Shown one piece after another: positions 10,810 through 60,176 of a stretch of 64,000 bases of DNA. Origin of the DNA: Streptococcus himalayensis (GTDB taxonomy: Bacteria > Bacillota > Bacilli > Lactobacillales > Streptococcaceae); NCBI RefSeq assembly GCF_001708305.1, contig NZ_CP016953.1, positions 385,001 through 449,000 on the forward strand. The letters run 5' to 3'. Each line of letters starts with the position of its first letter. Position 1 is the stretch's first letter. A program made the translations under genes and the position numbers. The notes under the pieces were generated by a model. It saw nothing but the letters and a program-made list of their open reading frames with translations, had not been told where the DNA came from and searched no databases.

Positions 10810-10856
10810 CAAAAAGAGCAGCTAAATCGGACTCTCTAAAGGTTGATTTAACTGCT
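10810..10856 (-). terminator. Terminator or attenuator upstream of rpoB
   Basis: On the minus strand, AGCAGTTAAATC (10856-10845) pairs with GATTTAGCTGCT (10828-10817), 12 bp with one G-U pair, followed by CTTTTTG. It lies about 50 nt downstream of the strong promoter at 10912-10940. It could attenuate rpoB transcription, end a short RNA of about 95 nt, or terminate the lipoprotein gene. Confidence 0.75.
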
Positions 10857-10911
10857 GTTCGCTTTATATGGACAATATTTCAAATAAAGCAGACGACAAA
10901 TAATTGGTACA

Positions 10912-25628: not shown

Positions 25629-27131
25629 TTAATGTGCCAACATCTCTTGGGCAATTTCTTGACCCGACAAATCTTCTGGATAGTAGGTTGGCCAATTTTC
25701 CAACTCATCAAAGAGTTTTTCTTGACTTTCTCCACCAAAGAAGATGTGGAAATGCTCGGTCTTCACTGGAGCAATGTTATGGTCACTGAACTGCACATAT
25801 TTAAACTGCCCAGCGTTTTCATCTGTTGCTTCAAACATGTAGCGAACCCCGCGATTGCCCTTCTTATAGGTCAAAATCTTCTTCCCTACATACTTGTAGG
25901 TGTATTTTTTAGTTTCCCCATTTGTGGTGAATTCCATGGTCTTGTCAGTGATTTTTATAGCAGATACATCTGTCTTATACCCGTTGTCATAGTAATCCTT
26001 GTACTCAGCTGCTGTCATCTGGCCTGTCAATTTTGCCTTGTAATCAAAGACCTGATCCAAAGTACCATCAAGCAGATAAGGGTAAACAGACTGCCATTGA
26101 CCCACATAGTCAGATAGGTCACGATCCTTGACCGCACTGTCTTCAAAATAGCCTTTTTGAACCGTCTTAGTCTCTTCGACTTCTTCTGGTTGAATTTCCT
26201 TACCAGCACTGTCTGTGGTCTTCTTGAGAGCTTTTAGATTTTCCTTCATGATAGACACATAGTTGTCTCCAGCTTTCATAGCTTTTTCGGTCAAGCTCTC
26301 CAAAGGATTGAGCACTTCTAGCTCGACTCCAGCCTCCTTAGACAAGGTAGATGCAACTGCTTGCGAAGCATTTTCCTCGAAATAAATGTACTGAATACCA
26401 TTTTTCTTGATGTAATCTGCCAATTCTGCCAAACGTGCGGCCGATGGCTCACTATCTGGAGAAATGCCTGAAATAGACACTTGTTTCAAGCCATAATCCA
26501 AGGCTAGGTAACGGAAAGCCGCATGCTGCGTTACAAAGGTTTTTTGTTTAGCAGCAGCAAGTTCAGCCTTGTATGTCGCATCCAAGTCTTTTAAGGTCGC
26601 AATATAAGCTGAGGCATTTTTCTCAAAACTTGCTTTTTTCTCTGGGAAATTATCACTGAGACTGTCGCGAATATGCTCCACCATCTGAATGGCACGACTT
26701 GGAGAAAGCCAAACATGCGGATCATAGTCATGATGATGACCTTCCTCACCATGGTCGTGGTCCTCTTCTTCCTCAAGCCCTGGCAGCAGCAACATATCTC
26801 CCGTCGCCTTAATCACCTTCACCTTGCCCTTGGTTACATTTTCCAAAACATCAGGTACCCAGGTTTCCATATTTTCATTTTCAAAGACAAAGACATCCGC
26901 ATCTTGAATTGTTGCGACTGCTTTGACAGAAGGCTCATAATCATGCGGCTCTGTTCCAGCACCGATTAACAAATCTACTGTTGCCTCGTCACCCGCTACT
27001 TGCTTGGTAAACTCATAGACAGGATAAAAGGTTGTCACAACCTTTAACTTGCCTGTTTCTGCTCCTTGATTGCTACAAGCTACTAACAATACTCCGACAA
27101 AAAGAAGCAATACCAATCGTAATTTTTTCAC
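25629..27131 (-). CDS. adcA: Zinc-binding lipoprotein AdcA with ZinT domain
   Basis: AdcA is the extracellular zinc receptor of the Adc ABC importer (500 residues). The lipobox LLVAC gives cysteine 19 as the lipidation site. The cluster-A-I receptor domain (about 30-310) contains a His/Asp/Glu-rich loop (DHDHGEEGHHHDYDPHVW). Residues 330-500 form the ZinT-like domain (GYFEDSAVKDRDLSDYVGQW, near the end HFHIFFG). The fusion is the usual streptococcal form. It is the last gene of adcRCBA. Confidence 0.96.
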   Translation of the reverse strand: MKKLRLVLLLFVGVLLVACSNQGAETGKLKVVTTFYPVYEFTKQVAGDEATVDLLIGAGTEPHDYEPSVKAVATIQDADVFVFENENMETWVPDVLENVTKGKVKVIKATGDMLLLPGLEEEEDHDHGEEGHHHDYDPHVWLSPSRAIQMVEHIRDSLSDNFPEKKASFEKNASAYIATLKDLDATYKAELAAAKQKTFVTQHAAFRYLALDYGLKQVSISGISPDSEPSAARLAELADYIKKNGIQYIYFEENASQAVASTLSKEAGVELEVLNPLESLTEKAMKAGDNYVSIMKENLKALKKTTDSAGKEIQPEEVEETKTVQKGYFEDSAVKDRDLSDYVGQWQSVYPYLLDGTLDQVFDYKAKLTGQMTAAEYKDYYDNGYKTDVSAIKITDKTMEFTTNGETKKYTYKYVGKKILTYKKGNRGVRYMFEATDENAGQFKYVQFSDHNIAPVKTEHFHIFFGGESQEKLFDELENWPTYYPEDLSGQEIAQEMLAH

Positions 27132-27141
27132 GATAATCTCC

Positions 27142-55379: not shown

Positions 55380-56741
55380 CTAACCGAATACTTTCTTGAG
55401 CACTTCGCCAATGGTTGTCACGCCAATGACTTCGATTTCTTGAGGGATTTGTAAGCCTATAAGGGAATTTTTTGGAGCATAAAGCCTAGTAAAGCCCAGC
55501 TTAGCCGCTTCATTGATTCGTTGTTCAATGCGGTTGACACGGCGAATTTCACCAGTCAAGCCGATTTCACCGATAAAACATTCCTGGGGATTGGTTGGCT
55601 TATCCTTGTAGCTAGAAGCAATCGCAACCGCAACCGCCAAATCAATTGCCGGCTCATCTAACTTGACACCCCCAGCAGACTTGAGATAGGCGTCTTGGTT
55701 TTGGAGCAATAAACCAGCCCGTTTTTCCAAAACCGCCATGATGAGACTAGCCCGATTAAAATCAAGCCCTGTCGTCGTACGCTTGGCATTGCCAAACATG
55801 GTCGGTGTCACCAAGGCTTGGACTTCTGCTAAAATAGGACGCGTCCCTTCCATGGTCACGACAATACTGCTGCCAGTCGCTCCATCCAAGCGTTCTTCCA
55901 AAAAGACTTGACTGGGATTGAGCACCTCAACTAAGCCTGCTGACTGCATTTCAAAAATGCCGATTTCATTGGTAGAGCCAAAACGATTTTTGACAGCCCG
56001 CAAGATACGGAAGGTATGCTGACGCTCCCCCTCAAAATAGAGCACGGTATCCACCATGTGCTCTAGCATCCGAGGACCTGCAAGCGTGCCTTCCTTGGTC
56101 ACATGCCCCACAACAAAGGTCGCAATATTGTTGGTCTTTGCAATCTGCATCAGCTCCGCCGTCACTTCTCTGACCTGACTGACCGACCCTTGAACACTTG
56201 AAATCTCTGGGCTCATAATGGTCTGGATAGAGTCAATAATCAGAAAATCAGGCTGAATCTTCTCAATCTCTGTCCGAATACTCTGCATATTGGTCTCAGC
56301 ATAGAGATAAAATTCACTGTCAATATCTCCCAAACGCTCTGCTCGCAATTTAATCTGCTCTGCCGATTCCTCACCACTAACATACAGAACCGTCCCTTTT
56401 TGCGATAGCTGGGTTGATACTTGCAAAAGGAGAGTTGATTTCCCAATCCCTGGGTCCCCCCCTATCAGAACGAGGCTCCCTGGCACAACTCCTCCCCCCA
56501 AGACACGATTGAACTCCTCCATATCTGTCTTGGTACGGCTCACATGACTAGAGGTCACCTCCGCCAACTTCATCGGACGCGTCTTCTCACCTGTCAAGGA
56601 CACACGCGCATGCTTGACCTCTGCGACCTCGACTTCCTCGACAAAGGAAGACCAAGATCCACAGTTGGGACAGCGACCCAGATATTTAGGGGAATGATAC
56701 TCACAATTTTGGCAAATAAAGGTTGTCTTTTTCTTGGCCAT
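55380..56741 (-). CDS. radA: DNA repair protein RadA
   Basis: RadA is a RecA-like ATPase and helicase that helps branch migration, and it is needed for transformation in pneumococcus. The 453-residue product has an N-terminal zinc finger ([18 protein letters not shown]), Walker [11 protein letters not shown], the KNRFG motif and a C-terminal Lon-like domain. It lies two bases after dut. Confidence 0.96.
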
Positions 56742-56743
56742 GC

Positions 56744-57187
56744 TTAATTCCCCGTTGAGCCAAAGCCACCTGTACGTGTGCCAGTTGCTTCATCCCCATC
56801 TGCCAGCAAAAAAGGTGCAAATACCGCTTGGACAATCCGCTCACCAACTTCAAGCACCACAGTCCTATCCGTGATATTTTGCATTTGAGCAAAAATGTGA
56901 CCTTCATTGCCCGGATTTCCATAGTAATCCCCGTCAATCACACCGACCGAGTTAATCAAGACCAAGCCTTTCTTGCGAGGATTGGACGAACGGTCATAGA
57001 GATACAGAACTTCCCCAGCCTGCATATAGGCTTTCACACCTGTCGGCACCAGCTTAATCTCACCAGGGGCAATCTCCACACGCTCCGCCACTTTCAAGTC
57101 ATAACCTGCCGCATGGGCTGTTTCCCGCTTGGGCAGTAAGTTTTCATCTGTAAATTGCGATACCAATTCAAAACCACGTTGTTTCAT
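56744..57187 (-). CDS. dut: dUTP diphosphatase
   Basis: This trimeric dUTPase (147 residues) keeps uracil out of DNA. Motifs [31 protein letters not shown] and the C-terminal [10 protein letters not shown] are present. It is coupled to radA. Two small RNA genes lie upstream of it. Confidence 0.95.
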
Positions 57188-57275
57188 GTCTATCTCCTAT
57201 CTATTCTCATTCCTATTATACTATATATTCGGCAAAAAAGGAGTGAGAATCACATCACCACTCACTTCTCCAAAG

Positions 57276-57372
57276 CAAAATAAAGGGCTGGAAATTTCCA
57301 ACCCTCAATTAGGAGATTTATGATGAAAAAAGTTAGGATGTATCAAATAAAATTAGGAGGCTTTCATTTGAT
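57276..57372 (-). ncRNA. csRNA-like small RNA (promoter-distal copy)
   Basis: On the minus strand the predicted RNA of about 97 nt starts with a hairpin closed by ATCAAAT and ATTTGAT (57372-57342), with CCTCCTAA in the loop, complementary to Shine-Dalgarno sequences. A single-stranded part follows with TCATCATAAATCTCCTAA, which could pair with a ribosome-binding site plus AUG. It ends in a terminator, GGGTTGGAAATTTCCAGCCC then TTTATTTT. This is the layout of the CiaR-controlled csRNAs known in streptococci. Confidence 0.8.
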
Positions 57373-57378
57373 AGATCT

Positions 57379-57411
57379 AGTATAAACTTTCTCTCTTAAA
57401 GAAACCTGAAA
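57379..57411 (-). promoter_or_regulatory. CiaR-like box and -10 of the distal csRNA
   Basis: TTTCAG-N5-TTTAAG (57411-57395) is followed after 10 bases by TATACT (57384-57379). The CiaR site is a TTTAAG direct repeat with a 5-base spacer at this distance from the -10. Confidence 0.78.
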
Positions 57412-57452
57412 GTAGAAATCTATATTTTCATAACATTTCCATGACGCTATTA

Positions 57453-57550
57453 CAAAAAACAAAAGCCAGACATGTGCCCAGCTTTTGTTCGGAGATTATT
57501 ATGAAAAATTTAGGATGTTATCAAATAAAATTAGGAGGTTTTCATTTGAT
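57453..57550 (-). ncRNA. csRNA-like small RNA (promoter-proximal copy)
   Basis: This copy has the same architecture: ATCAAAT/ATTTGAT hairpin with AACCTCCTAA in the loop, a linker with CATCCTAA and TCATAATAATCTCC, and a terminator stem AACAAAAGC/GCTTTTGTT followed by TTTT. The predicted length is about 98 nt. It is clearly a duplicate of the RNA at 57276-57372, with changes mainly in the terminator stem. The two lie in the same direction, about 40 bases apart. Confidence 0.8.
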
Positions 57551-57556
57551 GAGTCT

Positions 57557-57589
57557 AGTATAACCATCTTTCCTTAAAGAAATCTGAAA
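57557..57589 (-). promoter_or_regulatory. CiaR-like box and -10 of the proximal csRNA
   Basis: TTTCAG-N5-TTTAAG (57589-57573), 10 bases, then TATACT (57562-57557): the same spacing as the other copy. It begins about 20 bases after the stop of the LPXTG gene. Confidence 0.78.
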
Positions 57590-57608
57590 ATATCCTCTTT
57601 TTTTCAAT

Positions 57609-59051
57609 TTATTTTTCTTTCCGTTTCAAGCCTACAAATCCTGCAATACTTGCAAGAATGAGACCAGCGACAGAGAAGAACGCAATCTTGCTTTCCCCTG
57701 TTTTTGGAAGTGCTCCTTTGGCAGGTTTAGCTGGTGTCTTAGTTGGTGTTTTAGCTGATGTTTTAGCTGATGTTGTAGCACCCTTCTTAGATGATGAAGA
57801 TACGTTATTTCCTGCTATAAATTTCGATGTGATTTTTCCTTGGTCAGAACCAGGAGCACCAACTCCAGGTCCCCCTGCTTGTCCATCAGGTTTTACTTTC
57901 GTTTTTCCAGTATTTGATTGACCTGTCGGTTTGTCTGTTGGAGCAGGCTGTTTGTCTGACGCACGATAGAAGAAATCGCTTTCGACAAGCTTAGCCGGAC
58001 CATCTCCTCCTCGCACCAAACGTTCTTTCGTTTGAATTGAAGGGTCTGCTCCCAAACCATTTTTATAGGCAACATTCGCTGGGGCAAATACAAGAACGCC
58101 AGCTCCTATCTTATTTGGAGTTTTCAAATTGAAGTAGACACCTGGCAATTTGTCTTTATAGGCTCTTGGACCTTCAATCATCGTTGTTCCACCATGGCTT
58201 TCCACTACATTGCCCTGTTTGTCAATCGTAATCGTATGACCTTGGCTATTTTTCCATGTACCAACAATCTTGGAAATGTCTCCTCCAAGAAGCTGAACTA
58301 GGACGTCATTTTCTGCTTTATCCTCTTTATCCGAAGCATTATCTAATGAAGAGGATAGTAACGTTTCTGATAGTGTTGTATCAGTTGTTGTGGATGACGT
58401 TTCTGACGGTTTTGTTTCTGTTGTTGTGGTTGGTGTTTCTGTTGGTTTGGTTTCCGTTGTTGTGGTTGGTGTTTCTGTTGGTTTGGTTTCCGTTGTTGTA
58501 GTTGGCGTTTCTGTTGGTTTGGTTTCTGTTGTTGGGGTTGGCGCTTCTGTTGGTTTGGTTTCTGTTGTTGGGGTTGACGTTTCTGTTGGTTGAGTTTGAT
58601 TAACTACTTTCCCATTTTTTACAGTGAAGGTTGTTGTAGCAAAGTACTCAGTCTTATCTAATGATGTATATCGCCCTTCATATTTATAAGTTCCATCAGG
58701 GAATTTGTCAATCCAAAAATCCTTATGAGGGGCACTGTTAGTGAAGTATTGGAAACCTGTATCCCAAATAGTTCCTTTATCAGTGTAAAATGTTACAGCA
58801 AACTCGACACCCTGATTTTTCAAATAGTCACTCTGAAGCCCAATACGGATATAACTTCCATTAGCAAAAGGGGTAGCAGTTGCCGGTATGTCCTTACGTG
58901 GGTTCACTATTTCTGTCGCTGGTGTTGCTCCTCCCTCACCTTCGGCGTGAGCGATTGGACCACCGAGGGCAAGCATGGCAAGCGTTGCAATCGCAACGGA
59001 ACCAAAGACTACTTTTGTTTTACGCAAAGCGTAGGTCGTTTTTACTTTCAT
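57609..59051 (-). CDS. LPXTG cell-wall-anchored surface protein
   Basis: The 480-residue product has a YSIRK-like signal peptide (YALRKTKVVFGS; cleavage near AHA-36). An N-terminal domain of about 110 residues follows, then six 12-residue Thr/Pro/Glu repeats of the type PTETPTTTTETK (155-226). A middle domain begins ISKIVGTWKNSQGHTITI, resembling DUF6287-like modules. A Ser/Thr/Lys/Pro linker leads to the sorting signal LPKTG, a hydrophobic span and KRKEK. Sortase should link it to peptidoglycan. The function is unknown; adhesion is plausible. It is divergent from an Rgg-type gene. Confidence 0.92.
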   Translation of the reverse strand: MKVKTTYALRKTKVVFGSVAIATLAMLALGGPIAHAEGEGGATPATEIVNPRKDIPATATPFANGSYIRIGLQSDYLKNQGVEFAVTFYTDKGTIWDTGFQYFTNSAPHKDFWIDKFPDGTYKYEGRYTSLDKTEYFATTTFTVKNGKVVNQTQPTETSTPTTETKPTEAPTPTTETKPTETPTTTTETKPTETPTTTTETKPTETPTTTTETKPSETSSTTTDTTLSETLLSSSLDNASDKEDKAENDVLVQLLGGDISKIVGTWKNSQGHTITIDKQGNVVESHGGTTMIEGPRAYKDKLPGVYFNLKTPNKIGAGVLVFAPANVAYKNGLGADPSIQTKERLVRGGDGPAKLVESDFFYRASDKQPAPTDKPTGQSNTGKTKVKPDGQAGGPGVGAPGSDQGKITSKFIAGNNVSSSSKKGATTSAKTSAKTPTKTPAKPAKGALPKTGESKIAFFSVAGLILASIAGFVGLKRKEK

Positions 59052-59077
59052 GATAGAACTCCTTTATTGTTTTCTTT

Positions 59078-59083
59078 ATTATA
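59078..59083 (-). promoter_or_regulatory. -10 of the LPXTG gene
   Basis: TATAAT on the minus strand, 26 bases before the ATG, preceded by TG two bases away. No good -35 is present, which suggests an activator. Confidence 0.6.
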
Positions 59084-59120
59084 CACCACATTTACTTGCA
59101 AAGGAAAAAATTGGATATAA

Positions 59121-59226
59121 ATGTTCAACATCGTGCCCCCCTCTAAAATTTCAGGTGGATTTGAACATTTATGTTCATCTATTTCATTCCTTTTAGAAAT
59201 ATGCTATACTAGTAAAAAACGAACAT
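59121..59226. promoter_or_regulatory. ATGTTCA repeat sites between the LPXTG and Rgg genes
   Basis: ATGTTCA occurs at 59121-59127. A palindrome, TGAACAT-TT-ATGTTCA, lies at 59162-59177, and GAACAT at 59221-59226 touches the rgg ribosome-binding site. The first site is about 50 bp upstream of the predicted LPXTG transcription start. Confidence 0.55.
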
Positions 59227-59240
59227 TTAGGAGACAGCTG

Positions 59241-60176
59241 ATGGCCCTATCTGAAAAATATGGACAAACCTTTAGATACCTCAGAGAAGCGAGGGGATTC
59301 TCTCTCAAAGAAGCGGCTGGAGAGACCATATCCCCTCAACATTTAGGCCGCTTTGAAAAAGGAAAATCGATGGTCAGTCTCGAACATTTTGAACACCTGC
59401 TTCAAAATATCGGGATTGATTGGAGTACCTACCTCGTGACCAGCTTACAGTTTAATTCCGATGCACTCAGCAGACGGCAGGCTGAAATCTATGACCTTGT
59501 CGCCAAACGGCAATACACCAAAGCTATCGAGGTCATCAATCGCCCGCTTGAAGAGGATGGAGAGCCTATCTCTGACTACTACGTCGTGAGCCATCGTGTC
59601 GTTACCAAGCTCGGCTTAGCCAACCGCACTGGCAACTCTTTTCTCACTCCGAAAGATTGGCAAGAAGTAGAGTACATCAAGCAACGACTGACCGATATCG
59701 AATTGTGGGGCAATATCGAAGTCAATGTCTATGCCCAACTATTGCCTTATTTTTCCTACGAGTTTATTTCCTTCAAGGTTCGAGAAATTCTAAAATTACT
59801 CAAGACCAATCCCCATATCAATCACCATCAGTTGGGCGAATCCTGCCTATCGGTGTTAAAAGAAACCGTGACCTACTATTCCCAACAAGCTTACTACCAA
59901 GAGGCCGAAGACTTGATTCAACAATGCTTGGAACTCTTTGAAACCGTCCCTCGAACAGGCGTGAACATGTGGCTCAATCTTGATTTATTTATCCTTCGAA
60001 GTCATAATTTCTTAAGACAAAATGACCCACAGGGCTTAGAAATTGCTCAAAAAGTGATGAGCGTCTTGAATCACTTGGAAGAGTTGGGCATTGGAGGACG
60101 GCTGATTCCCTTGCGGGAGGATTTCTTCCAAACGACTGTCAAACTCAATCAAACAGGAATTCCCTTTAATCCTTGA
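59241..60176 (+). CDS. Rgg-family transcriptional regulator
   Basis: The 311-residue protein starts MALSEKYGQTFRYLREARGF behind AGGAG; a longer frame from 59121 is in the control region and is not used. The helix-turn-helix lies at residues 5-65 (SLKEAAGETISPQHLGRFEK). The remaining helical repeats are the presumed peptide-sensing domain. It is divergent from the LPXTG gene and shares an intergenic region full of ATGTTCA sites, so it is the likely regulator of that gene. No pheromone gene was found beside it. Confidence 0.88.
   Translation: MALSEKYGQTFRYLREARGFSLKEAAGETISPQHLGRFEKGKSMVSLEHFEHLLQNIGIDWSTYLVTSLQFNSDALSRRQAEIYDLVAKRQYTKAIEVINRPLEEDGEPISDYYVVSHRVVTKLGLANRTGNSFLTPKDWQEVEYIKQRLTDIELWGNIEVNVYAQLLPYFSYEFISFKVREILKLLKTNPHINHHQLGESCLSVLKETVTYYSQQAYYQEAEDLIQQCLELFETVPRTGVNMWLNLDLFILRSHNFLRQNDPQGLEIAQKVMSVLNHLEELGIGGRLIPLREDFFQTTVKLNQTGIPFNP

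Follow-up and report, generated by a model that had tools for sequence, protein, structure and literature searches.

Between the gene of an LPXTG surface protein and dut, on the minus strand of a 64,000-nucleotide stretch of the Streptococcus himalayensis genome (the window), two similar units follow each other. Inspection of the sequence shows that each has a direct repeat of the CiaR type together with a -10 box, hairpin, linker and terminator. An initial annotation, made from the letters alone, took them for two csRNA genes, and the locus raises two questions: whether both units are indeed such genes, and whether the second copy does anything that the first does not.

Two csRNA genes in tandem

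We used the promoter and gene-prediction rule of Marx et al. 2010 (PMC3091779): TTTAAG-N5-TTTAAG with at most one mismatch per half-site and the G kept, located 10 bases before the -10 box. Both units, here called copies A and B, have one mismatch in the first half-site and none in the second. The TTTCAG-N5-TTTAAG repeats, the 10-base gaps, the TATACT boxes and the hairpins are present where the initial annotation had placed them. In the window, the rule gives these two sites and no others, with an average of 0.33 sites in 100 Markov-1 controls, but since 2 of the 100 controls also reached two sites, the promoter motif by itself has only moderate significance. The identity of both units is settled instead by the Rfam covariance model for csRNAs (RF02379), the check that the annotation had itself proposed, which matches both above its gathering score of 57 (Table 1). 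The published gene-finding criteria agree with the covariance model on the architecture: both units are intergenic, have a terminator within 250 bases and carry an unpaired complement of a Shine-Dalgarno sequence and start codon.

Table 1. Positions of the features discussed, numbered from the first letter of the window.
Feature	Position	Strand	Basis
CiaR-type promoter of csRNA copy A, TTTCAG-N5-TTTAAG-N10-TATACT	57557..57589	-	sequence, published-criteria scan, genome scan
csRNA copy A, predicted 97-nt RNA	57454..57550	-	Rfam RF02379 at 57459-57550, 78.8 bits, E 5e-9; fold z -5.0
Copy A 5' hairpin, ACCTCCTAA in loop (anti-Shine-Dalgarno)	57520..57550	-	fold
Unpaired linker of copy A (canonical type), complementary to GGAGATTATTATGAAAAA	57491..57519	-	sequence, fold, survey
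Copy A intrinsic terminator; first terminator-like site 3' of LPXTG gene	57457..57490	-	terminator scan; hairpin retained in G041 (L180)
CiaR-type promoter of csRNA copy B, TTTCAG-N5-TTTAAG-N10-TATACT	57379..57411	-	sequence, published-criteria scan, genome scan
csRNA copy B, predicted 96-nt RNA	57277..57372	-	Rfam RF02379 at 57280-57372, 65.3 bits, E 1.7e-6; fold z -4.4
Copy B 5' hairpin, GCCTCCTAA in loop	57342..57372	-	fold
Copy B linker, variant type CATCATAAATCTCC, anti-AUG to anti-SD one base longer	57311..57341	-	survey
Copy B intrinsic terminator	57283..57306	-	terminator scan
Gene of the LPXTG surface protein (480 aa, with LPXTG anchor and DUF6287)	57609..59051	-	ORF, domains
dut (dUTP diphosphatase), downstream neighbour	56744..57187	-	ORF, domains
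adcA translation start region, candidate target	27114..27141	-	ranked first of 50 window ORFs by predicted duplex, for linker A and for linker B

The published rule puts the predicted start seven bases after the -10 box, which gives 57550 for A and 57372 for B, the same starts that the annotation had named; the 3' end of the copy A RNA was set at the last U of its T run. The two RNAs fold with energies of -25.4 (A) and -24.6 (B) kcal/mol, each into two hairpins and an open linker, and each better than all 200 of its shuffles. In both, the hairpin loop presents CCTCCTAA, and the linker is unpaired in the fold and complementary to a Shine-Dalgarno sequence plus AUG. Both terminators are among the six sites found by a scan of 57150-59300 (1.8 in shuffles). 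The half-sites, spacing and -10 box are identical between A and B, while the copies agree at 29/39 positions of the promoter, 30/31 of the hairpin, 26/32 of the linker and 19/35 of the terminator. The earlier description of conserved pairing parts and divergent terminators is thus right, with one addition, namely that the linkers also show differences. The statement that gene finders would miss both units holds for protein gene finders and fails for a standard Rfam search, which finds both.

On sequence grounds, then, both units are csRNA genes and look like ordinary members of their family apart from the pairing stretch of copy B. They resemble the RF02379 family (csRNA1-5 or Ccn of S. pneumoniae and relatives) in CiaR repeat, -10 spacing, two hairpins, anti-Shine-Dalgarno loop and linker, and size. 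They differ from it in the first half-site of both copies and in the copy B linker, which has one base more between anti-AUG and anti-SD than the canonical type, the one present in 71 of the 84 genes surveyed. The survey covers csRNA genes from the fetched loci with a box within one mismatch plus CCTCC, the 84 being distinct by exact sequence only and many of them coming from near-identical strains; TTTCAG is the first half-site in two, namely A and B. It departs from NTTAAG at a position that Marx et al. call slightly variable (PMC3091779). The family has been in print since at least 2010. The identification itself is ordinary annotation, and csRNAs predicted by the same rule have been confirmed by Northern blot in other species (PMC3091779). 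By analogy with the family, A and B would both be transcribed, depend on CiaR and repress their targets. A search of a phage collection with positions 56700-58000 gave no match.

Only 19 bases separate the LPXTG stop codon from the copy A promoter (57589-57609), and the scan found no terminator-like site between that stop codon and copy A's own terminator. Because of this gap, and because the copy A terminator survives in a relative discussed below (G041), it may also end the LPXTG mRNA.

The regulon and the dut locus in other genomes

The whole genome (2.28 Mb) has the CiaR machinery, as judged from five csRNAs over the RF02379 cut-off (A, B and three more), a further CiaR-type box found by genome scan at C1:599180-599212 before a gene that we take, from the start of its protein, to be htrA-like, a ComC-family match about 1 kb from that box (C1:600124, 23.2 bits; the comC candidate), and a regulator with a CiaR-type helix. 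The recognition helix, VVEVYVSKIRKKL, is carried by one of six Trans_reg_C loci (L147) and is as printed for S. sanguinis CiaR (PMC3091779). Two weak matches, at C1:328418 (28.8 bits) and C1:1239597 (24 bits), were not counted as csRNAs; the scan shows no CiaR-type box there. At G000:C1:648694-649967 (L004, L117, L141; G000 is the S. himalayensis genome) a csRNA gene is followed by genes for a helix-turn-helix regulator and a 45-codon peptide. The window also holds an Rfam Lacto-rpoB RNA element at 10844-10901 on the minus strand (66.2 bits).

RF02379 matches at E ≤ 0.01 occur in 54 of 117 genomes (own included), and over the cut-off in 39, with filters stricter than usual that lose weak matches; all lie in one of the 29 genera. 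In the genome G055, a match at C1:392841-392927 lies about 220 bases upstream of a gene for an adcA-related metal-binding lipoprotein (393146-393994). Among 80 named dut loci, the strict scan finds a CiaR-type site in 47, counting one on the other strand (L048) and one inside dut (L115), and a looser scan of the dut strand, with a loose anti-SD criterion and a flank of up to 5 kb, finds a csRNA-like site upstream of dut in 48. None of these 48 has two separate sites, the pair in L079 being 11 bases apart and hence one place. Rfam, run on 14 of the 80 loci, reports a csRNA over cut-off in four (L044, L049, L076, L082), yet none in L042, which has a strict site. Another 30 dut loci come from 30 of the 107 genomes that matched dut (own included). 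In 13 of them the flank that was fetched has a strict site, and two such sites are present at the locus of the window alone. There is no csRNA before dut in the close named relatives L038-L041, for which 5 kb of upstream DNA was scanned, or within the 1 kb available for L037. By the counts of 48/80 (loose scan) and 13/30, a csRNA before dut is a common streptococcal arrangement.

The closest printed counterpart for position is csRNA3 of S. oralis Uo5 (Marx et al. 2010, Table 2), which by its coordinates would lie upstream of dut on the same strand, with the difference that there is one csRNA there and two in S. himalayensis. In the genome G032 we found a csRNA 0.7 kb before dut at C1:21776-21873, at most 3 bases from the printed Uo5 csRNA3 coordinates, on which the correspondence is based. 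Tandem csRNAs, for their part, are already known elsewhere: csRNA1-1 and csRNA1-2 of S. sanguinis SK36 resemble each other and lie in tandem, and a review regards them as probable duplicates (PMC8186281). Unlike the present pair, they lie not at dut but at 65 kb, which by the coordinates of Marx et al. would be the ruvB region.

A variant linker and a decayed copy in a relative

The two copies part company in the linker. That of copy A is found exactly in four of the five csRNAs of the S. himalayensis genome and the canonical spacer in the 71 surveyed genes mentioned above, whereas a single gene among the 84 has the copy B type. Among all fetched sequences, it is carried only by copy B of the window and by its counterpart in G041 (L180/L212).

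Of 108 genomes searched with dut and adcA, G041 is the closest (98% and 84% identical, respectively). Its locus L180 has the same arrangement as the window, a related LPXTG gene followed by two csRNA-like units and dut, and the two LPXTG proteins are 46% identical at residues 53-151 and 66% identical in the anchor. In unit A of G041 both half-sites and the linker are lost and the terminator hairpin is kept. Unit B has the promoter CTTTAG-N5-TTTAAG-N10-TATACT, and its hairpin is interrupted by an insert of about 100 bases (L180 about 1277-1376). Copies of this insert at 88-91% identity, one of them in two pieces, lie at the G041 loci L017, L224 and L228; L150 has shorter pieces, and L040 and L068 have weaker copies. 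The insert is therefore a dispersed repeat. Rfam recognises neither unit at E 0.01. With the box and linker of A lost and the hairpin of B interrupted, the pair is at least partly dispensable in G041. Nevertheless, the unit B linker there, ACATCCTAACTTTTTTCATCATAAATCTCCTAA, is the same as that of copy B in the window, with identity over 33 bases, even with the dispersed repeat in the G041 hairpin.

Since the same pair is present in G041 with its copy A decayed, we infer that the tandem duplication preceded the split of S. himalayensis and G041 and that constraint on A was relaxed in G041. Constraint on the pairing stretch of copy B possibly continued after the split, and the targets of copy B may have diverged; two genomes are thin ground for the statements on selection. 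A more specific version is that the duplicated copy B moved its linker register (complement GGAG-N7-ATGAAAAAAG) and now represses genes that other csRNAs do not, while unit A also provides the LPXTG mRNA with its 3' end; we regard this as rather unlikely.

Candidate targets

Duplex energies were calculated simply, with no accessibility term and with several start sites allowed per window ORF, for 50 of the 63 listed window ORFs. The adcA start region ranks first of the 50, with -22.2 for linker A and -19.7 for linker B against means of -12.0 and -13.1 (sd 3.6). This ORF (25629-27131, minus strand) encodes ZnuA and ZinT domains and has a GTG start, with its start region near 27131. A zinc phenotype has been published for csRNA mutants of pneumococcus, adc gene expression being reported as not significantly changed in the mutant (PMC11478796). 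As a conserved target that would explain the zinc phenotype, adcA was rejected, since the stretch from Shine-Dalgarno to start is different in all 29 relatives fetched (L150-L178, which scored best among 108 genomes), and we keep it only as a local prediction. The csRNAs of S. pneumoniae repress comC by pairing at its start region (PMC4507080); here the comC candidate gives -15.8 (linker A) and -16.8 (linker B), about one sd better than the window-ORF means and thus not distinctive, again with no accessibility term.

Linker A has four exact complements (18 bases) in the genome, all of them inside csRNA genes, so no other gene matches this linker perfectly. For linker B, the best duplex of the same calculation is with the start region of the 45-codon peptide gene at G000:C1:649950 (-23.4). 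It was set aside as a shared target; the region is unmatched in G041, G010 and G058, an empty answer that carries no weight. Besides copy B itself, sites within 3 mismatches of linker B number 6 in S. himalayensis and 10 in G041, and three candidate pairs look orthologous by their protein starts. One (L213/L216), presumably an oligopeptide-binding-type lipoprotein, scores -22.5 in both genomes; another (L217/L225), which we take to be a GdpP-like protein, scores -23.5 in both with linker B versus -11.6/-11.3 with linker A; and a membrane protein (L215/L214) scores -20.8/-27.0. The strongest single duplex (L220, -33.1) is found in G041 only. The choice of sites by likeness to linker B biases these energies, and orthologues have start regions in common in any case; the pairs are a lead, not evidence.

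Taken as a whole, the locus very probably comprises two tandem CiaR-activated csRNA genes that repress targets by pairing. Specifically, CiaR would bind each direct repeat and drive from each unit an RNA of about 96-97 nt ending at its own terminator. The loop and above all the unpaired linker would then pair with the Shine-Dalgarno sequence and start codon of target mRNAs and block their translation, with an effect that adds to that of the genome's three other csRNAs. Since the proposed tandem duplication, copy A has stayed with the canonical linker, and that of copy B is a variant.

A doubtful but serious alternative is that only one copy, B or A, is a functional csRNA, the other being a fading duplicate kept for the terminator that ends the LPXTG mRNA. 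It would account for the G041 copy A, with its terminator hairpin and no box or linker, for the lack of an earlier terminator-like site behind the LPXTG gene in the window, and for the unchanged copy B linker in the two genomes. However, copy A in the window is intact, scores 78.8 against 65.3 bits for B and has the exact canonical linker, while in G041 it is copy B whose hairpin is itself interrupted and goes unrecognised by Rfam. Going further, one may suppose that both units are silent or CiaR-independent relics whose csRNA likeness is merely ancestral. The unusual TTTCAG half-site (2/84), the lack of a csRNA at dut in several close named relatives and the decay in G041 all fit, but the second half-site, spacing, -10 box, fold and terminators are all intact in the window and linker B is the same in two species, which makes this most improbable.

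We give next to no credence to the idea that the true feature lies on the other strand, as 20-21-codon peptide genes with their own Shine-Dalgarno and ATG antisense to each csRNA. Each complement strand does have GGAG and, after a spacer, an ATG that opens a frame of this length, and a simple scan found one weak plus-strand promoter-like site (57295-57324, 9/12). Yet the same arrangement, a mirror of anti-SD and anti-AUG, is present in 82 of the 84 surveyed csRNA genes, with frames of 4 to 23 codons (45/84 reach the -10 box) and AGGAGG read as LGG or VRR, which leaves no single peptide with a conserved frame. The region also has no more promoter-like sites than its shuffles (3 found, mean 4.5), and antisense peptide genes were rejected as a mirror image of the pairing parts.

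Two CiaR-activated csRNA genes in tandem thus remain the preferred reading. The csRNAs are sibling small RNAs that seem redundant. Targets of its own, if copy B has them, could include orthologues whose start regions match in the two genomes. A tandem pair at one locus, with decay of one copy in a relative and a pairing stretch private to the other copy, would offer a natural experiment on whether such RNAs divide their targets between them.
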